From: Phytoseiulus persimilis | Taxonomy: Eukaryota; Arthropoda; Arachnida; Mesostigmata; Phytoseiidae | Reading direction: 5' to 3' | Length of the DNA stretch: 64,000 nucleotides | Assembly (NCBI GenBank): GCA_037576195.1 | Contig: JAQZDE010000066.1 | Location: 61,001 to 125,000, forward strand | Shown here: one piece after another, positions 2,901 to 55,500 of the stretch | How the letters are laid out: each line of letters opens with the position of its first letter | How positions within the stretch are numbered: position 1 is the first letter of the stretch | Position numbers and translations under genes: made by a program | Notes under the pieces: model-generated | The model's database searches: none | What the model saw: the letters and a program-made list of their open reading frames with translations, nothing else | What the model was told of the DNA's origin: nothing

Positions 2901-3983
2901 ATGCGTGCTTTAACCGTTCTCGCTCTCGCTGGAGCATGTCTCGCCATCAGGGTTCCCAAACCCTCGGCTGAGCCTCACTGGCAGGCGTTCAAGGCCACCC
3001 ACCTCAAAAGCTACCGCGATACCTCGGAGGAACTCATCAGGAGATTCATTTTCGAGGACAACCTCCACCAGATCCAGGAGTTCAACCGAGTCAATGCATC
3101 CAAGGCTGGTTTCACCCTCGGAGTCAACTCCTTTGCTGACATGGTGAGCCTCAGCCATACCCGAATAAAATGTCATTGTTTTCTCAAATTGTAAAAGTCT
3201 CCCAATACCCATCGAGTAACGGAAGACCCCTTTCAGACCAACTCTGAGTTCTCTCAAAAACTCCTCGGTCTCAAAGGCTTGAAGAGCATTGCCGGCGACT
3301 CCGTGTTCGAATCTAGCAGCGTGCAAGACCTCCCCGCGGAAGTTGACTGGACCAAGCAGGGTTACGTCACTGGAGTGAAGAACCAGGGACAATGTGGCTC
3401 ATGCTGGGCTTTCTCAACCACGGGATCCCTCGAAGGCCAGGTGTTCAAAAAGACCGGGAAGCTAGTCTCGCTCTCCGAGCAGAACCTTGTGGACTGTTCG
3501 ACAGCCCAAGGGAACAAGGGCTGCGACGGGGGTCTCATGGACCAGGCATTCACCTACATCAAGAATAATGGTGGAATCGACACCGAGGCGTCCTACCCCT
3601 ACACGGGAAGCGATGACACTTGCCACTTCACGCAGAAAAACGTTGGAGCTCAGGTCACGGGCTTTGTTGATGTCAAAAGCGGAGACGAGACCGCTTTGAA
3701 AGAGGCTGTAGCCACCGTCGGTCCCATCTCGGTTGCTATCGACGCGTCCTCGATCTTCTTCCAATTCTACAGGTCTGGCGTCTACAACCCTTGGTTCTGC
3801 AGCTCCACTGAACTCGACCACGGAGTTCTCGTCGTCGGCTATGGTAATGAGGGTGGCAAAGACTACTGGCTGGTGAAGAACTCCTGGGGCTCGGGCTGGG
3901 GTCTTAGCGGCTACATCAAGATGATTCGCAACAAGAGCAACCGATGCGGCATCGCTACCCAGGGCTCCTACCCCACCGTCTGA
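2901..3983 (+). CDS. Cathepsin L-like cysteine protease (complete, two exons)
   Basis: A papain-family (C1A) endopeptidase precursor of 329 residues, the usual cathepsin L length. Exon 1 is 2901-3143 and exon 2 is 3237-3983, separated by a 93-nt phase-0 GT-AG intron that ends in a pyrimidine-rich tract. A signal peptide (residues 1-16, hydrophobic [15 protein letters not shown]) is followed by an I29 propeptide. That propeptide has a perfect ERFNIN spacing (E-x3-R-x3-F-x2-N-x3-I-x3-N) and a GxNxFxD motif (GVNSFAD). The catalytic residues are all present: Cys137 in QCGSCWAFS with the oxyanion-hole Gln just before it, His276 in [11 protein letters not shown], and Asn296 in KNSWGSGWG. The start is the first ATG ahead of the signal peptide. 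The protein is expected to be secreted or lysosomal and activated by propeptide removal; in arthropods such enzymes often serve digestion or vitellin processing, but the role here is inferred. A broken relative lies at 15.7-16.2 kb. Confidence 0.95.
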
Positions 3984-6900
3984 GGAGAACTCTCCGAAAA
4001 TCGGGAGAAGATGCTGCTACAGCAGGTGTCGGACACGGAGGAGCGTGGATCACGGAGTTATTGATTCAAGCTTCTGGAAGTTTTGATCTTATCCAGTCGA
4101 TCCCTCTCATCTTGGACATCCTTGGGGCACGTTCTTCACCTATAAATGAGCACATGAACGGACCTAACAGTAGTTGTCTATCAATGCATATTATCGCGAG
4201 CTCCGCTCGAGGCTGTGAAACTTCGGGAAAACAATGTTGTTGAGTCGTGCATCCTCCTCCATCATGGAAACGTTCTTCATGTACAAAAACGCGGCGTTCT
4301 GTGTCGAAATCTTAACAGAGCTCGAGTAATGGCATCGGCAGCACTCCTCTACTGATGTTTGGACGTACGTGAGCCGATGTGGTCCGTCGTTCCTAGTGAC
4401 TGTTTCACACTGAGGCTGAAAGCGAGAGGCCATGAATTCAAGTACAGAGACTCGTTGTTCTTCTGGGTATTGCCGATTCAAGCAACGTCGGTCGCGGAAG
4501 ATCGGACTGGATAGATTTCATGGCTTGACGGAGTTCGGTTTCCGGAGCTTATTCTCGGGAATTGAAGCTGCTGAGCAGCCCGCTTGTGAACTATTTCACC
4601 TGGTGTATTGAATCCAATGGAATCGTGCTCCCACTGGCCATTCGAATGCCTTGAGTAGCCACCTCTTCCTTTGAACCATCTTGTGTCTGGAAGCATGATT
4701 CTCGTGACGTTACTCCTTCAGCAAACTCATTGAAACGCGCCGAATAGTCAGCGGCAGGTCAACGGCGATGCGATCACGGGTATATCCCGAAGGCATGCCG
4801 GGCTGCGCCGGGCAGGAGAATCGGAATCAGATCTTCGAGAAAAATGGACGAAGATTCGAGAAATACCATCGTGGCTCACGGACGTCTCTATGGAATCGTT
4901 CCAGAGGCACAGTGATCGATTTGGGGAAAACCACTGGGAAAAAACTTTGCCGATTAAAAGACTTCGCCGATATCGATTGAAAGTCATAAGGACAAAGCTC
5001 TGCAGCCGAATATCGAAACGAAACGTCGCATACGTACTCTTGACGGGGCGGATTATATGCTGAGTCTATGATCGAGAAGTACATTAGTACGCAGGAAAAT
5101 CCCCTCAACATGAGCTGGCAACAACCCGTATTACCCATCCAATCATGCGCGACCGAGTTTTATATGGAAGATTCGAGTTCTAAATAATCTTGGAACAGAT
5201 GCATTCCGACTCTCCGGACAGAGAGCGCGAGCAAGACAACATAAACTCCATTCCTTCCTTATCTAACAAGTGTTTATTTACATGCCACGAATCAGGGGGG
5301 GGGGACGCCAAGTCATGCTAGTCGAGAGACATTCTCTTGAAGAATTACGGAAAAAAAAATTGGTCTCCAGCGCCCCATTTCATGTAGTGAGATTCTGCCG
5401 AGGCGTTCAAACAAGCTGGAGGTCGGGCGGAGCTTATATCCATTTTTTCTTCCGTAAATCTTGGAACAAGACGCACATTTTGCTCGTTTAGTCGACCCAA
5501 GCAGTACATGTGCTCGAGAGCGAGTCGAGGCTTAAGTTTCCATATGTTTCCTCATGTAGCCGAGCATCCCCTGGGATCGCAAAAGAAGTGCTCCATGTTG
5601 TGGACTCTTGGGCGGCAAAGAGGGATTCTGTACTCCTAGATGCCTGTACAGCGGCCGGAATCCAGCTCATGGGAGGATTTATTCCTGTGGAATGCATAAG
5701 TCTCGTTTAGCCACTGAAAGTCTCCTTTCTCCGACAATACGAATCATTCGTCCGTTTCATAACAGACACTGCCATCGTCGGAAGTTCGGGAGCCTGCCCA
5801 ACATGTGGCAACAGCTCAACATCTCGGCCCTGCAGTCCTTTGTACTCTCCAGTTCAGCGCCCCGACTCGGGTACATGATTGGATATGCCTCTCACGAAAC
5901 GGGGTATACGAGAGCGGCGCCGGGACCATAGATCTTCCCTCTTACAGTTTCGAAGTCCGGAAGTCCCTGGAGAGAAGTCCAAGCCGACTTTTCGTTTTCT
6001 TCTAGCTCGTTGACAGAATCTCGCCGGATGAATGAGGACACGGAGGAAAAATGTTCTTCGTCGTTCCTCCCGAAGGTCTCTCAGACTATCATGATCCGGA
6101 AGTGCCCCTGAATTCATCCGCAGTGAGTTGTCACTTGTAAGAGCCTAAACCGGGAATCATTAGACATCAATTTCTGGGAAGATGTGCGAAAATCGCGGAG
6201 AAAAATTCATTAGACGCGTCCTCTGATCTCGACTTGTCTTCGTGTGGAATCGGGAAGGCCTTGCCTATGAAGGGAACGAGCCCATCAAGTCCGGAGACGA
6301 GGGCGTACAGATTTTCCCGGAAACGGGTTCGTGATGAAAAGAAAAGTTGGTGAACGTTATTCTAGATCAGCTTCAGATGACGAAAGTTTTCCAAGGGAAT
6401 GATCCTTCGGGGTAGAACCAGTTCCAGGATCACTTCAGAACGCCTTTACCATGAATGGAACGATTTGAAAAACGAGCCAGCCACGATGCTGGTGGGTCCT
6501 GAGACCGTGAAATATACTCGCTGGAGCCTTTCCAAATGGTGAAAAATTTTCTGAGAGACAACACCGGGCTACAGTTGAATAGGAACAGAGACCATGAGGA
6601 AAACTTTTCTGTTCAGGCTTGTTTCAGAAATCTTTGACAACATAACTGTCATCAGCGCCCCCCCCCCCTCCTCTTTCTATGAAAACCTCGATACGCCAAC
6701 TTCTTCCCTCGAGCTTCTCGCACCCGCTGCAAACGACGCATTCGCCGTGAGCTCTTCAAGATCCAAGAGAAAAAGTTGAATAGAAGAAGTGAGCTATCCT
6801 CGAGTTCCATATGGACGATGTTAAACAACACGATCTTCTGCGCGTTTCGGAACGGACTGATTGAAGTCAAATGACGTTTCAACCATTCCGATACCAGAGA

Positions 6901-7591
6901 TGATCTCCCGAGAATCGGACGAACTCCGAAAGATCGTTACGGTGATAACGTATCTTCTGAAGCAATGAATTGAAATGATCAATCCCAAGTGAGAAATCCG
7001 CTGCGCATACCCAAGAAGTCAGTCCCGGCAGCGAAATTTGTTCCAATCGATTCTGTTCAGTGATCATCTTTCGGTCAAGAGGGAGGGACCGTCAAATCGG
7101 AGCTGAAGTCCTGTTCTTCATGCATCCGAATCACCGACGGCTCGAACACCGTCCATTATGAAGTCTCAACTCTCTTTCTCCTAGTTAAGCTTTGTTCCTA
7201 CCGGAGGAAAAGATTTTCCCGATTGGCTCCACCTCGATTGACCGTTAATCGCTCTTCCGAGAAATCATGGGCGAAACACGGAGGACAGATCCACGGAACG
7301 ATCTCCAGAAACTCGTTCTTTTATTTCCCAATTTTCCCGGACTATTGTTTTTCCTAGTAAAGAAACAAACGGAACAGATCCAGCTGTTTGAAATAGGAGT
7401 ATCTTATGAAGACCGAGAACGTATCCGATCCTGATATCCTTCCCGTAACTACCCTTCCTCGTCGTGCGGGAGGTAGACAATGTGCGGGGGGCACGTGGTG
7501 TACCTGGAGGATCAAACGGTGAGTGAGCGTTGCTGATTCAAATAGATGGATGATCTGTTTCAGAACGCGAAGTTCTATACGTAGGACGAAT
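3984..7591. other. Intergenic, no supported gene
   Basis: Only short open frames without recognisable domains. Homopolymer tracts occur, with a G run near 5287-5296 and a C run near 6659-6668. The 3' UTR of cathepsin L lies at the left edge, and the right edge approaches the 3' end of the minus-strand repetitive gene. I see no canonical AATAAA directly after 3983. Confidence 0.45.
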
Positions 7592-10500
7592 TTACCGAGA
7601 TTTGTGACAGTCTACGGGTTCGTGATCTGTGTTGAAGCACAGCTCTACGGCCGTCAGTAATATGTCACCGTCCGCACAAACCAGACCCGGATGGCTTGGA
7701 TGGAAGACCATTATAGTGTCGATCAAATGATCTCTTTTAACTGGCGGTGATCGCTTCGGCTTGAGCGCGATGATGCCCATAATATCTGAACATGGACGTC
7801 GGTTTACCAAATGATAGGTGGAGTAAATAATGACAGATTCAAGGCAAGCATACGTACTCTCAAAGTTACACTTCTTATGAAGCTCCTCCATCGTGGACAT
7901 GTAATTTTCCAGCCCCGCCAACCTGAAAAGGTAGGAATTATTTAACACTTCGGAGACGTTCGAATCGGAGTGCTGGAGATGGTGCCTCTGGCACACGACA
8001 CTCTCTCACGTTCGCCAAAGTTCCCGGAATACGGTTTCAGGCTTGACGTACGATTTCAAAATGCCTTGCCCAATCCTCTCAACTGCTTCGAGAATAGCAT
8101 TCTCGCGCTCACTGGCCTTCAACCTCAGCATCTTTTTTTCAAGATAGTCGATGGTTCCTCTCAATCCAGCCGCTTTCTCTTTCACTGGAAAAGCATTATA
8201 AAATCATTCGCGGATTCTGCACTGACCGTTTCTTGTGGACTCGGCTCATTACTCACATAGTGCTTTGTATTCATCAAGCACCGGTTCAGAAAGTTTCGGG
8301 TATTCTTTATCTAGTTCAGCTTGATCGTGCGCGTAGCCCTTGAGGCCTCTAAGGGTCCAACTGGCGGTCGAGATTGATAAGCCCGTTTAGAGAGCTTGAT
8401 CGTATGGCTGAGCACGTAATATCGCAGTTTTATAGAAGGCACGAGCTTACATTTCTGTAATCTTCCACGGAGCCTTCGCGTTCTCTCCAGCCGATTGTAG
8501 AATCGCCGGAACTTCCCCAAAAACAACGATCAATTGTGCTGACTCTGCTTCGCTGGAAAATTTGTGTCTAAATCTCGCGCCAAGATTCATGGCTGCATCC
8601 CAAACTACTCCTCGTCAGCCCACATCTCGAATGTTGAGAGCTCAAGCTAATGGGACAGAGGAGGGTGTGCGCCACCCAGCGGTGAGCGAAGCCAGGACCA
8701 AAATATTCAACCTATCACCGACAACGAATGGAACAGGTGAGTGCTCCGGTCCCTGTTGGAAAACCCCCATCGAGGAAATCAGCGCAGGATTTTCTGTAAC
8801 GAATGACGACCTTGGAATCCTCCGACGTGGCGCTCACCTTTTTTCTGTCTCTGAGAAGGTGGACTCTTCTGCTGGCTCTCCCCAATGAAGTCGACACCGT
8901 CGATAATCATCCTCGGGAGTCGCCTCGTCCACGGGCGGAGGCGTCCAATGCAACTCACATCTCCGATAATCATGCTGCGGAGTCGCTTCGTCCACGAGCG
9001 GAGGCTGGCGGCTGCCAGCCTGTTGCTCCCTGGGATACAATCTACATCGCCGATGATCCTTCTCAGGAGCTGCCTCGTCCTCGGGCGGAGGATTCCAGGG
9101 CAGCTCACATCGGAAAGGGTTACGTAGGGGAGTCGCCTCGTCCTCGGGCGGAGGATTCCAGGGCAGCTCACATCGGAAAGCGTCACGCATGGGTGTAGGC
9201 TGGTCCGTGAGATTTTTCGAGGCATTCTCTGTAGGGTACATTCTGCAACGCCGAGGATCGTGGAACGGAGGCGGAGGAGGATAGTCTGCACGATCACTGC
9301 TCTCCTCCGCCGCCGACTGGGGCAGCGCGGGTCTCAATCCGCTTTTCCGATAAGCCTCCAAGAATTTAGAGCGTCTCGGCCATCTTCGGTTCGAATCTCC
9401 GGATCTCAATTTTTTCTGGCTCGAACCCCGAGGTCCGAGCTTTCCTGGGTCCCGTCCTCGAGCTCCCAGCTCCTTGTTCTGACCTTGAGATGGTGTCTCG
9501 CTCTGGCTCACTTCTTGAGGTTCTAGCTCATCCCGACTCGAAGACTGCAACTCTGGTTCCTCTCCGCTCTGACCCTGAGAAGCCGGCTTTTCGCGACCCC
9601 GAAATCGGGGTTTTGGGTCGTCCTCGCCCAGCTGATGTGATGTTGGATCAGTCTGTGCCGTATCTGGGGCTCCTGGCTTGCCCTGAGCTGGCTCTTGAGA
9701 TCCGAGCTCGCTTCGGGTTGAAGCCTCGTTGGGATCCTGACTGTAATCAATTACGGTAAGCAATTGCGCCCTTCTGTGATCCTCCAGGGGAGTCGCCTCG
9801 TTGTCGGGCGCAGGATTCCAGGGCAGCTCACATCGGAAAGGGTCACGCGGGGGAGTCGCCTCGTCCTCAGGCGAAGGATTCCAGGGCAGCTCACATCGGA
9901 AAGGGTCACGCAGGGGAGTCGCCTCGTCCTCGGGCGGAGGATTCCAGGGCAGCTCACATCGGAAAGGGTCATGCAAGGGCGTGGGCTGCTCCGTGAGATC
10001 CTTCGAGGTATCCCTCTGCGGGGGATCCTTCTTCGCCGCCGGCTGGGGCAGAGGGGGTCTTAAACCGCTTTTCCGATATGCCTCCAAGATTTCAGAGCGT
10101 CTCAATCTCCATTGGCTCGGATCTGCAGATCTCAATCTTTCTTGGCTCAAACCCCGATGTCCCAGCTTATCTGGGTCCCGGCCTTGAACCCCCAGCTCCT
10201 TGTCCTGACCTTGGGATCCTGTCTCGCTCCGGCCGACTCCTTCACGTTCTTGCTCATCCTGACCCGGAGCCTGCGTTCCTAGTTCCTCCTGGCGCTGAGC
10301 CTGGGTTTCCGGCCTCTCATCCTCATGTACAGACCGTGTCTCGTTCTGGCTCAAAACCTCTAACCCTGGTCCCTCTCCGCTCTGACCCTGAGCAGTCGGC
10401 TTTTCCCGAGCCTGACTCCGGGATTCTGGGTCATCCTGGCCCAGGTGATGTGATGCTGGATCGGTCTGTGCCACATCTGGGGATCCTGGCTTGCTATGAG

Positions 10501-13500
10501 CTGGGTCTCGAGATCCTCGCTCGCTTCGGGTTGGAGCCTCGCTGGAATCCTGACCGTAATCAAATACGGTGAGCAATTGGGCTCTTCTGTGATCCAAAAA
10601 GGGAGTCGCCTCGTCCTCGGGCGCAGAATTCCAGGGTAGCTCACATCGGAAAGGGTCACGCAGGGGAGTCGCCTCGTCCTCGGGCGGAGGATTCCAGGGC
10701 AGCTCACATCTGAAAGGGTCACGCAGAGGCGTGGGCTGTTCCGTGAGATCCTTCGAGGTATCCTTCTGCGGGGGATCCTTCTTCGCCGCCGGCTGGGGCA
10801 GAGGGGGTCTTAAACCGCTTTTCCGATATGCCTCCAAGATTTCAGAGCGTCTCAATCTCCATTGGCTCGGATCTGCAGATCTCAATCTTTCTTGGCCCAA
10901 ACCCCGATGTCCCAGCTTATCTGGGTCCCGGCCTTGAACCCCCAGCTCCTTGTCCTGACCTTGGGATCCTGTCTCGCTCCGGCCGACTCCTTCACGTTCT
11001 TGCTCATCCTGACCCGGAGCCTGCGTTCCTAGTTCCTTCTTGCGCTGAGCCTGGGTTTCCGGCCTCTCATCCTTATGTACAGACCGTGTCTCGTTCTGGC
11101 TTAAAACCTCTAACCCTGGTCCCTCTCCGCTCTGACCCTGAACAGTCGGCTTTTCCCGAGCCTGACTCCGGGATTCTGGGTCATCCTGGCCCAGGTGCTG
11201 TGATGCTGGATCGGTCTGTGCCACATCTGGGGATCCTGGCTTGCTATGAGCTGGGTCTCGAGATCCTCGCTCGCTTCGGGTTGGAGCCTCGCTGGAATCC
11301 TGACCGTAATCAAATACGGTGAGCAATTGGGCTCTTCTGTGATCCAAAAAGGGAGTCGCCTCGTCCTCGGGCGCAGAATTCCAGGGTAGCTCACATCGGA
11401 AAGGGTCACGCAGGGGAGTCGCCTCGTCCTCGGGCGGAGGATTCCAGGGCAGCTCACATCTGAAAGGGTCACGCAGAGGCGTGGGCTGCTCCGTGAGATC
11501 CTTCGAGGTATCCTTCTTCGGGGTATCCTTCTTCGCCGCCAGCGGGGGCAGAGGGGGTCTTAAACCGCTTTTCCGATATGCCTCCAAGATTTCAGAGCGT
11601 CTCAATCTCCATTGGCTCGGATCTGCAGATCTCAATCTTTCTTGGCCCAAACCCCGATGTCCAAGCTTATCTGGGTCCCGGCCTTGAACCCCCAGCTCCT
11701 TGTCCTCACCTTGGGATCTCGTCTCGCTCCGGCCGAATCCTTCACGTTCCGGCTCATCCTGACCCGGAGCCTGCGTTCCTAGTTCCTTCTTGCGCTGAGC
11801 CTGGGTTTCCGGCCTCTCATTTTTATGTACAGACCGTGTCTCGTTCTGGCTTAAAACCTCTAACCCTGGTCCCTCTCCGCTCTGACCCTGAACAGTCGGC
11901 TTTACCCGACCCCGACTTCGGGATTCTGGGTCATCCTGGCCCAGGAAATGTGATGCTGGATCAGTCTGTGCCACATCCGGGGTTCCTGGCTTGCCATGAG
12001 CTGGGTCTCGAGATCCTCGCTCGCTTCGGGTTGGAGCCTCGCTAGAATCCTGACCGTAATCAAATACGGTGAGCAATTGGGCTTTTCTGTGATCCCGAAG
12101 GGGAGTCGCCTCGTCCTCGGGCGCAGGATTCCAGGGCAGCTCACATCGGAAAGGGTCACGCAGGGGAGTCGCCTCGTCCTGGGGCGAAGGCTTCCAGGGC
12201 AGCTCACATCGGAAAGGGTCACGCAAGGGTGTAGGCTGGTCCGTGAGATTCTTTGGGGGATCCTCCTTCGGGGGATCCTTCTTCGCCGCGGGCTGGGAAA
12301 GAGCGAGTTTGAATCCGCTTTTCCGGAATGCCTCCAAGATTTCGGCGCGTCCCATGCTTCTCCGGATCTGACCTTCGGGGCCTGTTTTTTTCTGTCTCAA
12401 GCCCCGATGTCCGCGCTTTTCTGGGTCCCGACTCTGAGACCCCAGCTTCTCTCCCCGACCTTGGGAACGTGTCTCTCTCTGGCCCAGCTCTTTGGGTTCT
12501 AGCTCGTGTCGACCAGACGCCTGGGTTCCTAGTTCCTCCTTGCTCTGACCCAGGGATTTCAGCTTCCCGTCCTGAGGCTCGGGCCGTGTCTCGTTACGGT
12601 CGAGCTCTTGAATTCTTCCGTCTTCCAGGCCTGAAGCCTGCAACCCTGGTCCCTCTTCGCTCTGACCCTGGGCTGCTGGCTCCTCCCGGCCCTGATCTCG
12701 AGGGTCTGGCTCTTCTCTGTCGAGCTGATGGGTTACTGAATCAGGCCGTGGCACATCTGGGGCTCCTGGCTTGCCCGGAGTTGGGTCTCGAGAACCTAGC
12801 TCGCTTCGGGTCGAAGCCTCGCTGCAATCCTGATCGTAATCAATTACGGTAAGCAATCGGATTCTTCTGTGATCCTCCGGGGGAGCAGCCTCGTCCTCGC
12901 GAGGAGGCTCCCAGTGCACCTCACATCGCCTATAATCATGCACTGGGGTCGCCTCGTCCCGGAGCGCAGGACGGCCGCCTTCAGTCTGCGGCTCCTTAGG
13001 ATACAATCTGCATCGTCGATGATCTTTCTCGGCAGTTGCCTCGTCCTCGGGCGGAGGATTCCAGGGCAGCTCACATCGGAAAGGGTTACGCAGGGGAGTC
13101 GCCTCGTCCTCGGGCGGAGGTGACCAGTGCGGTTCACATCGTCTGTAATCATGCAGCGGAGTCGCAACGTCCTCGCTGTGTGGCGAGAGAAGCGGCTCAA
13201 GCCTTTGACCGTCACGTATCGGCTTGGGCTCGCTGTCTCCGACAGCAGGTTCCTCCTCGTCTATTCTTCCCTCAGCTTGTGCTCCCGTTAATGATCTCTT
13301 CCGTGTTCTCGCTTTCATCTCTTCGGCAATTTTGTCCACTATCTCGGGCGTCGCTACCTCATGTTTCCCATCAACCACCACGTGAGGAACTTCGCTTTTG
13401 AGCTGACTAAGGAGCTTCCGATTCAGAGGAGCCCACTTTTTCTTCCCACCATGGTACACCGTCACTGCTCCTCTATAATAAGCAGCGAAGAGCTTGTCTA

Positions 13501-14221
13501 GATTCATGGTCTTCGGTCCCTCGCCATCGTCAACTTCGAAACCGTTCTTCATCATATCCGCGAAAACAAGCAGATCCAGCGCAAAGTCATTCGACATCTC
13601 GATCGGGTTGCCTTTCGTATCGAAGAACTGGATCTTTCCCCCGGGACCCACTCTGTAACTGGCTCGCCCTCGATCGAGACCGAGTCTCTCCACATGATTG
13701 GATAAGTCGGCCCATCTCCGCACGACGCTCGAAACCGGCACCCATTCCCCCTCTTCATCGAGCACGCGAAGTTTTCCGCGCTCGTCCGTTTGGTCATTGA
13801 GGAGCCCCTCGAGTTCTTTGAGGCTGACTTCTTTGTCCGGCTGCGATTGACGTCTAACGCGAATCTTCTTCGGAATCCTGTTCTTTATTTCTTCAGCCGT
13901 CATCCTCTTGACATTGTTATTCACGTAAACTACGAGTGCTGGTTCTTCCTGAGCGCCGGGTCTTCTCACATTGACAGGGATCGATGCCTTCCGAGGCCTG
14001 GGAACACGTCTCCCCCCATAGAGGATCCCATTGGACATCTGATCTACGGCTATGTGGAGAAGCCATAAGAGTGCGCTGGAAATGATCACGTACTCAAGTA
14101 ACCGTAAGTGTCCAGATCGGGCGGGTCCGCTTCCACGAAGCTCGGCGCGTCGACGGTAGAGTATCAGGCCGAGCAGAGCACTGCAGTAGAGTATCGAGGA
14201 TGCGAAGAAATCCACCGTCAT
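7592..14221 (-). CDS. Giant tandem-repeat protein with N-terminal hydrophobic segments and C-terminal coiled coil; function unknown
   Basis: I do not recognise this family. Exon 1 (14221-8838, 1794 codons plus 2 nt) starts at the first ATG. It has two hydrophobic segments (residues about 6-21 and 44-61) that suggest a membrane anchor. A charged globular-looking region follows (about 90-330), then five repeat modules marked by LLTV(F/I)DY at residues 456, 716, 966, 1216 and 1487. Between modules, and in both end blocks, are about 19 short Cys-containing repeats of roughly 21 residues with the core DPFRCELPWNP or DYRRCxxHW. The modules are rich in Gln, Glu, Arg, Asp and Pro and are probably disordered, apart from a basic helix-like stretch (EILEAYRKSGL). 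The exon ends AAAAAG|GTGAGC. Phase-compatible exons follow at 8552-8451, 8360-8257, 8184-8052, 7922-7858 and 7785-7592, giving about 1993 residues. The 8184-8052 exon reads as an amphipathic coiled coil (LEKKMLRLKASEREN). Exon 1 is solid; the downstream joins are inference, and the last exon could continue past 7592 through a GTAAAT donor. Confidence 0.75.
9750..12860 (-). repeat. Roughly 750-bp coding tandem repeats (five modules)
   Basis: Equivalent points (the TTG codon of LLTV) fall at 12856, 12076, 11326, 10576 and 9763, giving periods of 780, 750, 750 and 813 bp. All are multiples of three, so the reading frame is kept. The two middle units (about 10580-11326 and 11330-12076) differ at only scattered positions, while the outer ones are clearly diverged. 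The pattern fits recent unequal crossing-over in the centre of the array. A smaller 63-bp repeat encoding the Cys motif is nested inside each module. Confidence 0.92.
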
Positions 14222-15740
14222 TGCTGATTTGGCCGCATGCGAATCCCAATCGTCAGCTTGATTTCGTTGTCAGTGATCTATCAATCATAGCTGGGTAAAC
14301 GGGCTGAAGGTAGAGTGTTTTGCTTAAGCACTAGTCGGGCGGAGATCGGGACCACTGGCGAGCTTTACTCGACTGATTTTCACGCGAAATAGACCCCATA
14401 GAATCATGCGTCCGTGAGTTGTTGAGAGGAAATAGCCGTCAGGATGATGCGAAATTTTCAGGCTCTTCTATCCAGACCGCGAGTCTCTCTTCATTTGTTA
14501 ACTGCTGGATGCACTTGAGGGGGTACACGAGGAGTAATTTGATGGTTTCGAGACGCGGCGCAAGCCGTACCCATGTGGTTGCGAAAACCTAGAATTGTTT
14601 GATCAGGACCGCAGAGCTCAGCAAGAATTCTGCGTTTCCGAGAAAAAATTGAGCAGTTTGGCCGCGGCGAAAAAACCTCTTTCAAAATCGCTCAAGAGGG
14701 TGCCGAGTTATGGCGTCCTCAAAAACGCAACATGACTCTGATCGTATCAGAGCTTTCTTGAAAATCGCTCTCAAAACTCCAAATTTCAACGTCAGCCGGA
14801 ACTGTAACTTTTTTCATTTTTTTTTCTATGTACGAACCGGATAGAATCGGTCCGGACCGGCTTCGAGCTATCGGCCTGGGAGGTCCGATTTTGACTGATC
14901 TCAATTTCGCGGTTGCAAGAGAACTGCCCGCCATTTCTTGAAGAACAATGAGTGTGGATTCAATCGATTGATCGAACAAGGCGCTGCTGAAACGAGATTC
15001 ACAGCCTCGAGTCGAAACAATCGCAGCTACGCTTCAAGAACATTGGTGCACGTCGTAAATGGGTTCGATATAGCGTCACCGATTACCTCGGGAACCCAGT
15101 GTTTTCGGGGAGACCCAGCGTTGTCCCTCCACATACTCCAGCGCGTCCTACACCGAAATGTTTGTCTCAGTCGGGAATCGCCGAGCCCGATTTTGTTTTG
15201 CCCATATTTTTGTCAATCCTTGGAGTTTTTACAGAAATCAAGAGGTAGTCAATAGAGAATCTCGAGGCGGTCATCTCGCTGTGTTTTCACTGAACCGGAG
15301 TTGATGGAAATCGCGACCAGGAGATGGTATAGAAATGACCCTTTTTCCGAGGTCTCCCTGAAAGTTATCGGGAGAACTTCAAATTGTATCGGGAGGAAGC
15401 CGGTCATTCGCCGATCCTTCGCCACCAATCCGATTGGAGCTATCTCATTCGTTCGAAAAATGGCAAGCTATCGTATCCACCGCCCGATGGCTAATATAGG
15501 GTCTCAGATGTTGGTGTAGAACTCTCGAATCATTTTATATCCAGGCCAGGCGTCTTCCGGGAAACTCACGACTCGAACAATAACTCAGACAGGGAAAATT
15601 GCGTTTCGGCATGATACGAGTGGAATTTCGGTCGAGAGAACTCTGTGTGCTTGACCATCCGCTGGATATATTCCGCCGAAAATGAAGTCAACATTCCCTT
15701 GACACCCTGGGGTTAGCCTCCGTAAATTCGCGACGAGGTT
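14222..15740. other. Intergenic, promoter side of the repetitive gene
   Basis: No supported gene. The 14222-14400 part should carry the 5' UTR and promoter of the minus-strand repetitive gene; I see no convincing TATA box. A T-rich run is present at about 14810-14826. Open frames here are short and lack recognisable domains. Confidence 0.4.
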
Positions 15741-16200
15741 TCAAACGCTCTGGTCGGCGTAATTCCGAGGGTTCATCAACGTGGCTTTCAGCGCGCAATC
15801 ACTGAGATTGTTTGCGTCCTTGTCCTCGTCTTGACGCAACTTGATGTAACCGTTGAAGCCACATTCCTGACCCCAAGAGTTTTTCACCAGACGGTATTTG
15901 CCATTCTCATCCGTACCATACCCGATGACCGGCACAGCGTGAGTGTGAGTTCTCGCATAGCTCATCACTGGAGATATCATCGATAGCGGTCGTTCTAGAA
16001 CTTCGGATCGAAAATATGTTCGCCAACATGTTGACTGCGACTGGCCCCTTGATAGCAACCGCCATGAGGAGATTCAAATCACCCGTTAGGTTATGATAGC
16101 CTCAGAGATCGCGCATGTCATGTTCGCCAGCGATTTCTTTCCTGCATGCTTGCCAGTGGGTGACGTGGGGAGACGAAGCCTCGGATGGAATCCATCGTCT
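15741..16200 (-). pseudogene. Cathepsin-like cysteine protease pseudogene (3' part)
   Basis: Reading the minus strand gives pieces of a papain-family mature domain in the right order but in different frames. They are a segment like GIPSEAS-YP near 16190, a segment reading LMAVAIKGPVAVNML near 16060-16025, then HAVPVIGYGTDENGK and LVKNSWGQECGFNGYI at 15935-15840. The His and Asn active-site motifs survive. A stop interrupts the frame near 16100, and a frameshift near 15945 separates the middle and C-terminal parts. No CGSCWAF region is recognisable upstream. It differs enough from the intact cathepsin L at 2.9 kb (a longer insertion after the Asn motif) to derive from another paralogue rather than a recent local copy. 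Confidence 0.8.
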
Positions 16201-16504
16201 GGTCTTGACGAAATTCGGTGCCAAGGAAATCAACGCTCGCCTGTTATCAGCTTGGCGAGCGAAGAAGAAGCCCCGGAGAGCTTGGACCTGAGATATTCAA
16301 ATACCATTATTCTGATGCATGACCAGCATTAAGAAAGAATTCGGGAACAGAAGTGTATTTGTGCGGTTGATAACCACCAGCCCCGCTAAGAGCTAGTGTA
16401 CTCCTGAATAGGATCACCATCCTTACTATACGTAATCAGCTTCGTCTGTCAGATCTTCAGTTTGTCCGCACTCCTTCTGAATTATATGGGGGCGATTTCA
16501 GGAC

Positions 16505-19700: not shown

Positions 19701-21480
19701 GGACGATGTCGCTCCGGGTGTGTAAATCTTGGATCACGTATCGTGCACGCCTTCAAGCTCGAAGCCCTCACCGTATACAGGGAACTCGGGCACCAGTGGA
19801 AAGTCACTATAGAATTTGAGCAGTAGAGCCTACTGATCGCTTGGTCTCGAGAATGCTTGCCGCCATGCTATAGCTTTTCTCAAATCCTGAGAGGGGTACC
19901 GGGAATAACGCGCTGAATGCGTTCTAGGAAGCATACGAACAACGGTTCTAGCTCGTCCTTGCGTCGTAGTAGAGATATTTCCCCCGGATACTAGACGACA
20001 ATATATAAGCTCCAGCTGTAGTCAAGGCGATACCGAAGGCTCCAGGGTAGTTTACGGCCTGATGGGCTTGATGGGTTCACGGGCCAGAGAGAAACCAGAG
20101 CCTCTGATCTAAACGGGCGCGTTCTTCACGAGGAGTAGCGCGGACGAAAACAATCGAATGGTCGTCGAGGAGCTCAAGGCCAAACTCAAGGGGCGGAGAG
20201 CAATACATGGGAGGTTTTCTGTAACTCGCAGCACTCATGAAAGAATAGGATTCAGATACCAATGTATCGAACTGGAACATTCGCAGCAGCCACGCGACCT
20301 ACGACTCGAATTTCTGGTGTACTCGAATCAGGCTCTTCTTAGCCGAGAGAGGTATGGGTTACGAACAGCCTGATTAGAACTCTCTAACGGTTCGTCGCAA
20401 GTTAACGGCGCCGATTCCTCCTTCGCCTCCTTCCGTTCGATGTCACGAAACCTCTCTAGAATCGTTGTCAAAGTTACGGTGTGGATATGGTGTGAGATCG
20501 TAGCCACATGAATGACTATCACGATCACTATGGAAATATCCTCCTTGCTTGTACCGTGAATGGTTTGAAATCTGAAAGCAACATTGACCATCATATATGC
20601 GTCAGAGTGACGGAGGCTGTTCTCCCCGAAGAGTTGGGGGAGATGCACCGCCCAAAAGCTTGGTGGTGTGTATCTTCCTATGGCCGGCAGAGACAAAACT
20701 CCCCCTGGAACCTCTCGGAAACCTCACGACCCGATGTTCACGAGCTGTTCATATTTCGTGATTTTTCTGCGCCTCCTGGGAGCGGAGTTATGAGCGATTC
20801 TTATTCAGGGCTCCAGACCCAAATCATGGGAGCTTGGTAGGTCTAAGGAGTCTGTCAGGGGAGTTGAACCTTGTGCGGATGAGTGAATTCCAGCGTACAG
20901 TTCGGGACACAATTTCTCAAGCTATTCCACAGATAGGCACACTTGAGAGGCACACTCAAGCGGAGTTCGCTTGAGGAAATTCGGTGATGCAAATGACAGA
21001 GTCTCCGAAGTAACTAGCAACGAATTTCGGCAACTGCTCCAATTATCTCTATCTCCGCTGTTCAGCACAATTTGTTCATCGGATTTTTCTGACTCCGTAC
21101 TACATTTTGAGACAACTGGAAGAGCGATTGGGATATGCCTGCCTACACATAGTGACGATTTGAGAAACGGATCGATTTCCCATGAATGCCCGTGGATAGG
21201 GGAGTTCCTCCCCACATTCCTGTAGCTTGCGGGTAATTCTGATGAGTACGTAGTCATGGGTTTGGGTATTCATGGGCTATCTCATTGCGAATGCATCCGT
21301 ACCTCTCCCGTTTGACTGTTTTATCATCTCATGGACCTACTCGTCAATGTGGCAAAGGCCTCGAGATATTTTCAGTAATCCATTCAGAGTGCGTGGCTAT
21401 GATCCTCTGAGAAGTCTCTTAGCTGATGAGGGGTGGAAAACCTACTCGGATGCGGTCGTTCCGGAATAGCCCTAAAAATC
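16746..21480. other. Long intergenic stretch, no supported gene
   Basis: Many short open frames on both strands, none with a recognised domain or a phase-consistent exon pair. The only structure I can point to is a pair of hairpins at 19400-19504, listed separately. The last few hundred bases precede the F-box gene and should contain its promoter. Confidence 0.4.
19400..19504. other. Two adjacent short perfect hairpins
   Basis: GAACCCCTCTC (19400-19410) pairs with GAGAGGGGTTC (19437-19447). Directly downstream, TTGATCAGTCGG (19471-19482) pairs with CCGGCTGATCAA (19493-19504) with one mismatch. The function is unknown; they could be remnants of a small inverted-repeat element or a structured transcript. 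Confidence 0.4.
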
Positions 21481-23714
21481 ATGAATCTTTTCAGTGGAAC
21501 GCAACTCCTTCATCTTCCGGATGAAGTTCTCGAGAAGATTGCCGTTTGCTTGGACTTGGAGTCGAAGATGGCGCTCGCTCACACGAACCGACGCCTGCGA
21601 CGAGTATCATGGGCTTCTTTGAAATTTCTGAAATTGAACAATATCTCGAGGTCTCTCTCGCAATGTTTCATCTCGATTGGTGCTCATGTGCGCCACTTGG
21701 ATCTTTCTGGTTGCTGGACGACCCCTGTAGTGTCCATTATAATGAAATGTCCAAGGGTCACGGAGCTGAACGTTGTCAATTCAGTGTTCAAGTGCGTTGG
21801 GTCGCTGGAATCTCTTCGTGGCCTGAAAGAACTCGAAAGCATACGAATGAACGCTTTGCACCAGAGCAGCTCCGGTGGAGTGACTGCGGACGACTTCAAC
21901 TCGCTAAAGAAGATATACATCGAAACCATTCCTGAACGTCCTCGGCTCGAATTCATCTTGAAATTCATGAATTACTGCAGATCGATCGAAATTATCCATA
22001 TCAACATACTGGGGAGCGTCATGGAGGGAAGTGTCTATCGCCTGGTATCTTCGTTGGAAGAAGAGCGGTGGGGCACGCTTCATACTCTCGTATGCACTTC
22101 TCATTTCGCGAAATCAAAGAATGCGGTCAGAGTTCTTCTTCGAAGCATCTTTGCCCACAACTCCAGCCCCGAGATTCGCGAATGGATCGACAGTCACCGG
22201 GAATGCTACATTTATGAGCACGGCTTCCTCAACGGCTACGTTCCCAGCAATACTAGGTTCCGCGATAAGATACAGGTGCTGAAACAATTTCATTTCGTCG
22301 ATCTTGCTCCCGATGCAGACATCAACAAACAGTTTAAAGCGCTCCTGGGCTCGCCTCGATCGCTTCGCATCTCCGGAACTGCCAGATTCTCTACGAGATT
22401 GCAAGGCTATCAATCGGGAGTTCTCAGGGAGTTGGACATCACGGGGTGTCATGGAAACTTCCCAGGAGAATTTCGATTGGAGATAATCAAATCTTTGCCA
22501 TCTCTCGAAGCCTTGGCATGCTCGCGTTGTTTTTTCCTCCCACTAGAAGAGGGAAGCTCCTCCGAAGTATGCAACTCATCGCGTCAGAATGAAGATTTCA
22601 AGAAGGCGTTGCGGGAGCGCAGACTGCGGAAACTTTTCGTGAGAGGGACTTTACATGTGGAGAACTGCAAAACAGAGGCGTGTGCGTGTGATGAGGATTT
22701 TGGCTGCATGATATGTCGCACAAAGACGCCATTGTCTGCAGCAACGTCGGTAGATATGAACGAATTGTCATATCTGCAAGAAGTGACCCTTAGCGGTGTC
22801 AGCCTTGGATCTTGCGCCTTCACTGTAATCGGGAACCAGAGAGTCCGTGTTGTGAGACTATGCTTGAATTCAAACAACGATTATTCAGGTCTGCGAGGCT
22901 TCATCCGACGATGTGTTAACCTTAGACACTTCAAACTCGAGGGTTTCGATGTGAACTTCCAATCGAAACAACTGTGGAGCGCTCTCGCCGAGGCGCATAA
23001 TCTCAAACAGCTGTGCCTCAGATCAGCATTCAGAAACAATATGAATGTGTTCGAATATGACACTGCTCTGAGTCTTTCTCTGCTAGTCCTCCGACAACTC
23101 GACTTCTTACATCTCCATTCTCCAGGAAGGAGATTCGCTTCCAGCCTGCGCGAAATCTCTGAATCAAGATTCGAAGACCTCGATTTACCCATGAAGATCA
23201 CTACCGAGCATTCGAGATTCGCGAAAAGACACATCAGAAACCATACCACTGGAGATTTCTCCTCGGGACGCGGTCTATGTATCCCGGAGAGCTCCATAGG
23301 AATCGTACCGCTGGTCGGTTGGGATGTATAATAGTGTCATTTGACATGTGGTTCCAGAGAGTGTGTTCCGCAGTCTGGAGGATTCTGGGAGACGAGATCA
23401 GATACGAACTGTCCGGTCGAGTCATGCGCATTTTACCTGGTCTTAAGAGCTTGTTTGGGGAAACTGGTTCCACGTACATGGATTGGGAGAGACTCTTCGC
23501 TCTGTCTGTTTCGATGGAAAAGTGGAACTGTGATACATTCCTTCAAAAATTATCCGCGACAGGAATAGTCGAACCTATGTTGGTCAAAGAACCTGGTCCG
23601 ATAATAAAATACAACCATTATACCAATTCATTACACAAATTTCATGGTAATTGTGGCAGCCGTGGCGAACGATGTGTTCCAAGGCTATTTCCACAATATC
23701 AGAGCTTCCAGTGA
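21481..23714 (+). CDS. F-box protein with leucine-rich-repeat-like region
   Basis: Predicted substrate-recognition subunit of an SCF (Skp1-Cullin-F-box) ubiquitin ligase. The ATG at 21481 is followed almost at once by an F-box (residues about 9-45: LHLPDEVLEKIAVCLDL and so on), then irregular leucine-rich segments (for example VRHLDLSGCW, VTELNVVN) through the rest of the protein. A Cys cluster (CKTEACACDEDFGCMIC, about residues 395-411) interrupts the repeats. The first open frame would stop at 23329-23331. However, a donor at 23279 (phase 1) and an acceptor at 23373 (TTCCGCAG) restore a second open frame 23374-23714 containing WRILGDEIRYEL, so I prefer a two-exon gene of about 712 residues. 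If that intron is wrong, the protein ends at 23331 (616 residues). A splice acceptor-like CTTTTCAG sits inside the first codons, so the true start could lie in an upstream exon. Confidence 0.75.
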
Positions 23715-41262: not shown

Positions 41263-42156
41263 CCTTGGATTGGATTGGATTTATTTGATCTTTCATATAC
41301 ATCATATGAACCCTTTTTATTACAGGGGTGAGTTGAATTGTAGTCACAGATCTTGTCTCTCCCAGTTCATTAGGGTGGTTTTCGTCCTCCGTAGGACTGC
41401 CTGAGTTGTGTTCGGCGAGAGTCCGATGCGGTAGGGGAATTCCTCTGGGGAGAAAGAGTCTTCCTTGCATCCCAGGACCATGTGTCTGTCCGTTTCGGTT
41501 CTGCCGCATCTTGGGCATTTGATGTCGATGGAAGGGTCACGGTTCCGGTGCTTTTTCAGGATGGTTATCATCCCTGCTCTCGTTAGAGCTAAAAGCTGGC
41601 TTCCGCGTGTGTTGTCGTACAGCCTTTGTTGTAGACCTCTGGACTCCTTGTGTTGCCGATAACACGCCAATGTGGATTTGGAATGCATGGCTTGTTTCCA
41701 TGTAGAGCCCAGTTTATCTTGCACATTTTTTCTAAGGTCTTTGCGGATGACAGCCAATGCGTTCCACATTGGCTTTCCAGATGTGTTTCTGGCTATTCCG
41801 AAGTCACTCAGGTCAAATTGTGTTCTCATTTTTCTGACTTCAAGAAGATCTTCATGAAGGTCGAAATCTGTATTATTTTGAGAAGACTCAGTTTTTCGCT
41901 GTAATGCCTATGTGAGCATCCGAGGAGAGTTTTCGAACCGCAGCTAGTTTTCCGAAGAATGAGTGTCAGATTTTGCGTTTGCAACAATCCTAGGATTGAG
42001 CGGTACCACGAGTGTCGACGCAAGAACGTGTTGAGCCAGCCATGACGTATTTACATGAAGTCTCATGGCATGGAACGTACGGAGGAAATTCCGCCAGCCA
42101 GGTCGCAAATTACTCCGAGGTTTGCGTTGATTCGTTTTCGAGCTCAACAATATCAC
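41263..42156 (-). mobile_element. 5'-truncated LINE fragment (ORF2 C-terminus and 3' tail)
   Basis: A 161-codon minus-strand frame (41829-41344) carries a CCHC zinc knuckle C-x2-C-x7-H-x4-C (CPRCGRTETDRHMVLGC) preceded by LTRAGMITILKKHRNRDPS, a combination found at the C-terminus of many arthropod non-LTR ORF2 proteins. After the stop, the minus strand runs into AAATAAATCCAATCCAATCC (complement at 41265-41284), a short tandem 3' tail typical of LINE insertions. Upstream pieces at 41840-42156 look like more of ORF2 but in shifted frames, so the copy is inactive. Confidence 0.75.
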
Positions 42157-52500: not shown

Positions 52501-55500
52501 ATTGAACTTCCGAAGCAACAAGAACGTTTGGGGATACTTCTCGGTGGGTGCGTCGGGAGGACTCCACGAGTTCGCGGACTCGCAGTTCGGCCATTGCTTC
52601 TCCTGGGGAGAGGATCGCGAAGAAGCGCGAGAGTGAGTAACTTCCCTCTCCTCCGCCGTGAGGAGGTTCACTCGATTCGATTTTCGCGTAACGGTTTCCA
52701 GCGCTATTCCGCTGATCGGATTAGCTCCTCTTTTCCTTTCCAGAAATCTCGTCATCGCTCTCAAAGAACTATCGATTCGGGGCGACTTCAGGACAACGGT
52801 CGAATACCTGATCACGTTGCTGGAGACTCAGGCGTTCAGAGAGAATTCTTTCGATACCGGATGGCTGGATCAACTCATAGCGGGGCGAGTGAAGGCAGAG
52901 AAGCCGGATATAATGCTTTCGGTCACGAGTGGGGCCCTCCACGTCGCATATAAGACCATTCGGGAGAACTTCCTAGGGTTCCAAACGGCGTTGGAGAAAG
53001 GTCAAATCCTCCCAATGTCAACGCTCAACAATACTTTCCCAGTTGAACTGGTCGCTGACGGCGTAAAGTACGCGGTCGAGGTGTCTCAAAGTGGTCCGAA
53101 CACGTACTTCCTCGTCATGAATGGCACGCACAGGGAGCTGGAAGCCCATCAGCTCTCGGACGACCGTCTCCTGATCAGCATCGACGGTTCTTCGTACACG
53201 ACTTATATGAAGGAAGAAGTTGACCGGTACCGAGTGGTCATCGGCAACCAGACCTGCGTTTTCGAAAAGGAGAAGGATCCGACGGTTTTAAGGTCGCCGT
53301 CTACAGGGAAACTCATCCAGTTCTTGGTTGAAGATGGCAGCCACGTCCTCGCCGGCCAGAACTACGCCGAGATCGAGGTGATGAAAATGGTCATGACATT
53401 GACCGTTGAAGAGACCGGTACAGTGTTCATCATGAAACGACCCGGTGCAGTGCTGGATGCCGGCGCTGTTTTGGCACGGCTCGAGCTGGATGATCCCTCG
53501 CGAGTGAACAAAGCGCAACCGTTCCTCGACGGTTTCCCGGCCATGAAATCAGAACGGCACAAGTTCGACAAGCTCAACCAGCAGTTCACGAGCGCCAAAA
53601 GCGACCTGGAGAACATTCTCGACGGCTACGTGATTCCCGAGCCGTATCTCTCGACTCGCATCCAGAATTCGCTCGAGATCTTCATGAAGACTTTGCGCGA
53701 CCCGCAACTACCGCTGATGGAGCTCAAAGATATAATCTCATCGATTTCGGGCCGCATTCCCCCGCAAGTCGAGCTCAACATCCGTCAGCTCATGAAGATG
53801 TACGACAAGAACATCACTTCTGTTCTTGCGCAGTTCCCCTCACAGCAGATCGCATCAGTGATCGACGGGTACGCAGCCACCCTTCAGAAGCGGAGCGACC
53901 GGGACGTTTTCTTCTTGACGACCCAGGGAATCGTCCAGCTGGTTCAAAGGCAAGTTTCCACCTCCAGCACTGCCAATCCTAATTATATCATCACCTGCAG
54001 AAAACCGAGTTTTTCGTAACGACTTCTCGCTTCCTCCACGCAGATACCGCAACGGAATCAGGGGCAGAATGAAACTCGTCTTGCAAGAGCTCCTGTGCAA
54101 GTACCTGAGTGTTGAAGTCGATTTCCAAAACGGACCTTATGACACGTGTGTCACAATCCTGCGCGACAAGCACAAGGATGCGACGAAGACGGTCGTGGAC
54201 AAAATATTCTCGCACTACAACGTCAGCAAGAAAAACTACCTCATGATCAAGCTGATTGATCACCTTTGCGGCCACGAGCCCGGACTGACGGACGAACTCA
54301 GCGCTACGCTGAACGAGCTCACGACGTTGAGCAAGCAGGACAACGCGAGAGTCGCTCTCCGCGCACGACAAGTGCTAATCGCGACCCATCAACCCAGCTA
54401 TGAGCTCCGCCATAATCAAATGGAATCGATATTCTTGTCAGCCATCGATATGTACGGGCACGACTTCTGTCCTGAAAATCTTCAGAAGCTCATCATGTCC
54501 GAAACATCGATCTTCGATGTTCTCCAAGATTTCTTCTACCATTCGAACCACGTTGTGCGGAAAGCAGCTCTCGAGGTCTATATTCGGCGAGCGTACATCT
54601 CGTACGACTTGACGTGTTTGCAGCACTTGGAGTTGCGGAGCGGAGTCTGTGCCGCACAATATCAGTTTTTGCTCCCTAGCTCACACCCGAATCGGTAAGT
54701 TGAGGGCTGCAAGCCGCCAGAGCGAATTTTCACTAGGAAACCCGTAAGAGTCGGACGCGGGATCCAGTTCAGCGGCCTCGGCTGAGTGATTTCGTCGTAT
54801 CAGAATATCCAAGATTCTATCTTGGGAGAGCGAACGAGATTTTGCCGTAGAATTATCGCCTACAACACAACGAGCGTCTTCGAAGTGTTGATTTCGGACT
54901 CTTATGAAGTTTATCGCTCCGGATGTGGCAATTTTGTGTCTAATCCTTCTCATGTTTGTCGCTAGGCGGGCAAGCTTACCTCATATAACGAAACGGTGAG
55001 TGCTTCGGGGAGCCTTTTGACGACCGCATCGAAGCCTGTGATTCGCTTGAGACCTGTCGAGCTTGATGAGTTGAATTGGTTTACTGATCGGCATCCTCGA
55101 CCTGAGCATGCATTCGATCTCGTCGACAACGACAGCGGCCCTTGAGTCAGTCGAGGAGCTGGTCGAGCCCGCTCTAGAGCAACGTTCCGACCTCTCAAAC
55201 TCTTCGATTTGTGCCCGCATGGCTGTCCGTGTCCGTTAGTGTAGGATGCATGCACTCCCGTCCTGATTCCCGCTCGAGAGACGGGGATTTTGTCGTCAGT
55301 AATTAGTTGAAGTGATTCGGAACCTTCCTTCCTCGGTTCCATCCTCCTCTCTATTTTGCCCGTAGTCGATGCCTAGTCAGCGTGAGAAAGTGAGAAGACT
55401 GACGTCGTTTTCTTCCATAGCCTCGCCAATCTGCCCGAGCAGGAAGACAAGGTAACATGGGAAGAGGGACCCACGCCCGACTTCGACACTCAAAGGGTGG

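Follow-up and report, generated by a model that had tools for sequence, protein, structure and literature searches.

The window analysed here, a stretch of 64,000 nucleotides from Phytoseiulus persimilis (assembly GCA_037576195.1, contig JAQZDE010000066.1, positions 61,001 to 125,000), contains on its minus strand, between 14221 and 7592, a giant gene that had been described from its letters alone as encoding an unrecognised protein with nested cysteine motif repeats. We conclude that this gene probably encodes a pseudo-RNase T2 protein that is anchored by a membrane hairpin and carries an expanded tail. The conclusion draws on a predicted exon structure in which the apparent stop codon falls within a splice donor, on a family of hairpin proteins dispersed in the same genome, and on the likeness of the last exons of several of its members to RNase T2.

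A stop codon within a predicted splice donor

The open frame of the gene runs from 14221 to 8834 and comprises 1795 codons without an internal stop, as the original prediction had stated. The span 7592-14221 that had been given contains this 1795-codon exon and also covers five more predicted exons, which the title of the original prediction does not describe. In the predicted model, which has six exons and encodes 2007 residues, the 1795-residue frame is only the first coding exon and not the whole protein. Coding exon 1 (8838..14221, minus strand, as are all parts of the gene given below; 5384 nucleotides) ends in phase 2, its frame continuing to the stop within the intron at 8834, and this apparent stop codon is enclosed by a predicted splice donor, GTGAGC (8832..8837). 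The donor is followed by predicted exon 2 (8451..8552), with which a T2-like domain starts, by predicted exon 3 (8257..8360), predicted exon 4 (8010..8184), predicted exon 5 (7858..7922), which is T2-like (LENYMSTMEELHKKCNFE), and predicted exon 6 with the stop (7592..7785), which carries the T2 C-terminus (VCADG...VELCFNTDHEPVDC). All five predicted introns are GT-AG, their phases are 2, 2, 1, 2 and 1, and exons 2-6 are stop-free until 7592, a position that is also the first coordinate of the original prediction.

A shared intron predicts that the donor is kept in the relatives of the gene, and this was found: in 16 of 16 family members (see below) the stop of exon 1 reads G|TAA or G|TGA in the context of a donor of the same phase (phase 2), with donor position 5 lacking G in L011 and L020 (L stands before the number of a locus and C before that of a contig). 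The background of G|TRA among the stops of the window is 0.177, from which 16 of 16 would arise by chance with a probability of 9e-13 under independence, which the kinship of the members breaks. If the model is correct, it illustrates how a giant open frame may conceal its true end in a splice donor.

The hairpin family

The genome carries about 18 loci of the family to which the gene belongs. Of these, 16 were examined and two were seen as search rows only; the genome locus counts given here are lower bounds. A search with residues 1-311 found, besides the window, eight dispersed places on C1 and C2 with E <= 1e-7, none of them with an internal stop, and weaker places, including some on C3; further searches added one member on C4 and more on C3. 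Excluded from the counts were L022 (E 1, with a stop), L023 (part of the gene of L014), L053 (E 7.3) and C2:26944417 (E 0.48). The 11 other members that were aligned are 18-26% identical to the window protein. Members have in common a hydrophobic segment, a basic loop with the signature LRGxGP and a second hydrophobic segment, to which most add the motif LRGGA and an N-domain; L021, L058 and L074 lack most of the N-domain. The tails behind the N-domain are mostly unrelated between members and some are of low complexity; L018 and L020 have a common ending. The tail of exon 1 of L015 (C2:50288050 region) contains a short imperfect tryptophan repeat peculiar to it (EDGIWYESEMPSDVSPGEG / GIWPERGASADVLPGEG / EFWYENV), a hint of repeated tail expansion in the family.

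In the window protein the order of hydrophobic segment 1 (residues 5-21; 14159..14209; mean hydropathy 2.09), basic loop with LRGSGP (14123..14140) and hydrophobic segment 2 (residues 41-57; 14051..14101; mean hydropathy 1.87) is that of the family, and the motif behind it reads LYGG where the family mostly has LRGGA. The two glycines of the signature, G30 and G32, are invariant among 12 aligned members, and a consensus from the alignment, which includes the window, matches the window at 2.5e-15. Counted over 16 members, lysines and arginines number 4 before the loop, 77 within it and 32 in the stretch of 15 residues that follows. By the positive-inside rule, according to which the cytosolic flanks of membrane segments are rich in basic residues, this distribution predicts a cytosolic loop, with the remainder of the chain in the lumen or outside. 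The two N-terminal hydrophobic segments and the membrane anchor of the original prediction are thus both supported, the anchor being sharpened to a hairpin with a positive loop. Weak hydrophobic segments were seen in two members, the second one in L014 and the first one in L011, the latter having an ambiguous start codon as well.

The N-domain (approximately residues 90-310; 13292..13954) is internally duplicated: its profile aligns with itself out of register, columns 80-167 with columns 184-272 (P 3e-6). Single-sequence structure prediction of the N-domain was poor (mean predicted local distance difference test score 45, predicted template modelling score 0.39), and the beta-beta-alpha pattern that it gave is merely a hint. 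No Pfam family was matched by the 12 family members scanned, and no convincing relative of the N-domain was found among Pfam, PHROGs or PDB sequences; it is a candidate new domain family. Matches to KH_TffA (E 0.045; 14.2 bits, the cut-off being 22.6), to phrog_7534 (E 0.017; one of 12 members) and, with N-domain queries, to a PDB chain named gp41-5 (E 0.038) and to three others with E above 1 were judged to be due to chance. Among viral contigs and prokaryote genomes no relative was found with one protein as query in a search that reaches close relatives only. Such a family was also not found in titles or abstract openings among the literature matches listed, which is not proof of its absence from print. 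The earlier statement that the architecture belongs to no known family therefore stands for the motif and the N-terminal region, for which no described family was found in Pfam, PHROGs or PDB; it does not stand for the gene as a lone one, which is a member of a family and whose model ends in a degenerate T2 domain that the original prediction had not named.

The RNase T2-like end

The last exons of the window gene had been noted as T2-like by eye before Pfam was consulted, and RNase T2 (PF00445) was then the sole Pfam match to exons 2-6 (E 0.0074; profile positions 108-188 of 188). A profile of eight C-termini of the family, searched against PDB, gave 17 matches at E <= 10, of which 16 were T2-type, including all 15 below 0.001 (best 3.4e-13). 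Because L074 is a strong T2 by itself, the profile was rerun without it: 12 of 13 matches were then T2-type, including all 11 with E<0.01 (best 2.5e-9), and covered mostly the C-terminal half. These tallies include trichomaglin, Actibind and CalsepRRP, which we take to be T2 proteins. Individually, six of the eight members matched Pfam T2 at E<=1 (best E 2.2e-30), or five of seven when L074 was left out (best E 8.6e-9). The C-terminal T2 cysteines C199 and C209 (numbered on the window C-terminus, row 1 of alignment A2) are invariant in all eight aligned members. In alignments A2 and A3, of which L083 and L084 are not part, L018 is represented by its last two exons only, L012 by a chain without exon 2, and some other ends are trimmed.

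The genome contains at least 22 T2 rows (20 candidates scored), several of them pieces of one gene. Six of the 22 listed lie within 10 kb downstream, on the same strand, of one among 14 exons 1 of the family, where 0.0085 are expected. Two of these rows are possibly parts of other genes, since L074 is a member in its own right and L084 is preceded by another T2-like set. When the window peptides were the sole reference, the search detected T2-like exons 5 and 6 downstream of exon 1 in L012, L016 and L017, and an exon 3 (WTLKGV) in L012; with references from these finds L018 and L020 were recovered next. A search for exon chains in fixed phase revealed T2-like C-termini in eight of 16 members (window, L012, L016, L017, L018, L020, L049 and L074). 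Of these L049 is a clean test, its full five-exon chain (total 258) having been obtained without its own peptide among the references. Chain totals of 85-96 for L010, L013 and L019 came without T2 likeness, and L011, L014, L015, L021 and L058 gave no chain.

L074 (C3:38305976-38309164) is a short member, in which a hairpin exon 1 of about 55 residues is directly followed by the T2 exons; it may be intermediate between the active T2 enzymes and those members that have degenerated. In a weak check of whether ordinary T2 loci lack the hairpin, its pattern was found in L074 only among 21 T2 loci scanned, the 1.5-kb flanks used also missing exon 1 of the known members L078, L081 and L082. Further downstream of the gene of L017 there is a second T2-like exon set (L078, at C1:39950682-39953885, and L084), which could represent either a second domain in tandem or the gene next to it.

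Loss of the catalytic motifs

RNase T2 enzymes are recognised by two conserved active-site (CAS) motifs, CAS I with the catalytic histidine (TIHGLWP) and CAS II (HEWxKHG). Of the 21 T2 loci scanned, several being fragments of a single gene, 13 had TIHGLWP and some had a CAS II-like motif; L064, an ordinary T2 locus, has kept both. In the hairpin family CAS I has kept its histidine in L074 (WTIHGLW), L049 (FSIHGLW) and L018 (WSLHGLG), in which CAS II appears to be partial, as read from an uncertain alignment. CAS I is altered in the window (WTLRGLK), L020 (CIRGLTG), L012 (WTLKGVR) and L016 (SLYAVQ), the alignment of L017 being unreadable. At the CAS I position exon 3 of the window gene has WTLRGLKG and not (F/W)TIHGLWP; exon 4 contains no histidine at all, so that there is no CAS II, nor is there a histidine at the aligned CAS II position. 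Because of the altered CAS I and of the lack of histidine in exon 4 the window protein is, as judged from its sequence, most likely catalytically dead. The family would be a case of an enzyme taken into dispersed membrane proteins as one of their domains, and with members that keep part of the catalytic residues (L074, L049, L018) and members that have lost the motifs (window, L020, L012) side by side, the loss of catalysis could be traced within one genome.

The likeness of the window protein to the RNase T2 family (PF00445; human RNase T2, ribonuclease MC1) thus consists of its C-terminal approximately 210 residues in family-profile searches and of the C-terminal cysteine pattern. It differs in lacking the CAS I and CAS II histidines and in that its predicted T2 domain sits behind a membrane hairpin, a domain of no described family and a giant repeat tail. 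Many T2 functions are independent of ribonuclease activity, according to the part of a review that was consulted (PMC10452627), in which part hairpin-anchored, repeat-tailed T2 proteins are not described.

The cysteine motif array

The repeat tail (residues 356-1790; 8852..13156) consists of 24 copies of a 21-residue motif, 19 of them with cysteine, and of long linkers rich in proline, glutamate and arginine. The 1795-residue frame contains 21 cysteines in total, 19 in the motifs, the others being C13 in the first hydrophobic segment and C466. The count of about 19 single-cysteine motifs in the original prediction is confirmed; to these come the five copies without cysteine, each of which leads into LLTV[FI]DY. 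The LLTV anchors are spaced 260, 250, 250 and 271 residues apart, and of the five modules of 250-271 residues claimed there are therefore four full periods and a partial fifth: module 1 (260 residues; 12095..12874), module 2 (250 residues; 11345..12094), module 3 (250 residues; 10595..11344), module 4 (271 residues, with one additional cysteine motif; 9782..10594) and partial module 5 (9266..9781), which merges into the C-terminal end block. The N-terminal end block (HDYRRC, NPFRC, KDHRRC, HDYRRC; 12872..13141) and the C-terminal end block (8906..9175) are 83% identical across 270 nucleotides and have the motif order NPFRC-KDHRRC-HDYRRC in common, as had been noticed. The listed repeat spacings (63, 150, 660, 687, 717, 726, 750, 780, 786, 813 and 3966 nucleotides) are every one divisible by 3. 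A genome search with the cysteine motif turned up nothing related outside this gene, its next best match having an E of 0.41. Furin-type sites (R-x-[KR]-R) occur at residues 121, 872, 1122 and 1372, three of them at one position common to modules 2-4; modules 1 and 5 do not have them, and therefore no reading was rested on these sites.

Between modules 1, 2 and 5 the cysteine block is 83-89% identical and the linkers 46-69%; the LLTV segment is 70-75% and the RRSEILEAYRKSG segment 56-83% identical between modules. Second codon positions of the cysteine block differ at 0 of 47 sites in each of the three pairs. The ratio of nonsynonymous to synonymous divergence (dN/dS) of this block reaches 0.84 in one of three module pairs, and since its synonymous divergence is also below that of the linkers in two of three pairs, homogenisation contributes to the likeness. 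Outside the array, exon 1 of L015 compared with that of L017 (dN 0.46, dS 2.05) was counted as constrained.

Proposed function and alternative explanations

We tentatively propose a tethered, non-enzymatic binding scaffold. The two hydrophobic segments around the short, strongly basic cytosolic LRGxGP loop would anchor the chain in the membrane, and the rest of the chain would be in the secretory lumen or extracellular, in the order duplicated family domain, probably disordered tail rich in proline and glutamate, and terminal RNase T2-like domain. In the window member the tail would have grown by tandem duplication to a cysteine/tryptophan motif array of 1.4 kilo-residues. The pseudo-RNase would bind rather than cut, with RNA as its ligand or else something that partners the active, secreted T2 enzymes. 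The many copies of the single-cysteine motif could serve multivalent binding or form disulfide links between neighbouring chains. Extracellular cross-linking through one cysteine per motif, as had been suggested, is possible, and the predicted lumenal position of the tail is consistent with it. That a lineage-specific family of tethered pseudo-T2 proteins has swapped RNA cleavage for the capture of RNA or of partners at the surface, the giant member forming a disulfide-linked multivalent matrix, is a more speculative extension, which we consider unlikely. If true, it would give animals an equivalent of the enlarged pseudo-RNase sets of fungi. In powdery mildew the RALPH effectors are an expanded set with an RNase-like fold without catalytic residues, one of which has been proposed to be a pseudoenzyme (PMC6464244). 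They have the T1/F1 RNase fold and are secreted by the fungus, and their likeness to the window family is by analogy only.

Several observations weigh against a hairpin-anchored pseudo-RNase T2 protein. The T2 match of the window scores 16.9 bits, below the curated cut-off of 26, and the window C-terminus alone (218 residues) found no T2 match in PDB, the rows obtained being DNA gyrase, Hsp70-binding protein and P13, none with an E better than 0.14. The references of the exon-chain search included own peptides for L012, L016, L017, L018, L020, L074 and the window, which makes these scores partly circular. For L010, L011, L013, L014, L015 and L019 there was no convincing T2 exon within the 1.3-3.1 kb downstream (for L010 a T2 row lies 8.2 kb downstream, not linked to the gene), and for L021 and L058 there was an exon-2-like stretch alone, within 0.4 and 0.8 kb of downstream DNA. 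In the model of L018 a stop falls at the junction of exons 3 and 4; alignment is poor for exon 2 of L012 and for exons 3-4 of L016 and L017; and L083, itself a T2 row, yielded no chain. Pairwise dN/dS between modules is 0.38-0.75, so that constraint is weak and their likeness partly reflects recent duplication. Finally, all splices of the model are predicted from the sequence alone, and the function is one that we infer.

Other explanations were also weighed. Passive growth of the array, as a near-neutral tandem expansion in a disordered tail of variable length without a function of its own, strikes us as rather doubtful taken by itself. Set against a functional array it is nearly as good, because the tails of other members are quite different and mostly unrelated and the modules are weakly constrained; modules 2-4 are near-copies, and homogenisation and the one high dN/dS of the cysteine block point the same way. 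The approximately 5.4 kb that stay open in frame and the unchanged second codon positions of the cysteine block speak against passive growth. If the array had a purely structural role, as a surface coat, cuticle-like or secretion protein that is cross-linked, and the T2 remnant had no role left, the 19 single-cysteine motifs on the predicted lumenal side and the better conservation of the cysteine block than of the linkers would be accounted for. We nevertheless regard this as improbable: the array is found in one gene only and, since C199 and C209 are invariant in eight members and the T2 exons of the window are stop-free, the T2 domain is not simply decayed.

The exon model itself could join what are two adjacent genes, a repeat-rich membrane protein ending at the exon-1 stop and a separate downstream T2-like gene or pseudogene. 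The frame is intact up to its own stop, the junction to exon 2 is predicted only, and six of 16 members have no T2-like exons in the downstream DNA examined. This separation seems quite unlikely to us in view of the phase-2 donor context in all 16 members examined, of the same-strand, phase-matched T2-like exons behind several dispersed loci, and of L074, where exon 1 is very short and the T2 exons follow immediately. Least credible is a decaying pseudogene, for which the loss of the catalytic motifs and the weak constraint on the modules could be cited; 1795 codons and five further exons without a stop, and five GT-AG introns of consistent phases, make it very improbable.

Neighbouring features

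The contig of the window (C65) is small, 125 kb, and contamination was considered because a stretch of acetyl-CoA carboxylase in it has a second copy on C3. Copies of a dispersed repeat of approximately 570 bp at about 41265-41840 are present on the four large contigs C1-C4. Among the best 40 of 157 candidate copies, which were scored, most have 85-96% identity and two pieces 73-74%, and this shared repeat argues that the contig is native. The frame 41344-41829 (minus strand) within the repeat had no Pfam match at E<=0.01, and Rfam gave no match at gathering score in window positions 6500-16500. The acetyl-CoA carboxylase piece lies at 52658-54019 (plus strand); 260 residues of it are duplicated at C3:13063465 with 85% identity, and the gene may be duplicated. 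A frame of 632 residues at 21433-23331 (plus strand) matches the F-box weakly, at an E of 0.0003 that falls short of the cut-off. A papain-family cysteine protease is encoded at 3279-3983 (plus strand; E 9e-88), and a C-terminal piece of a papain-family protease at about 15740-15970 (minus strand; E 1.2e-12), upstream of the giant gene and on the same strand; this piece may be an exon of a gene or a decaying copy, and nearby frames may hold more pieces.

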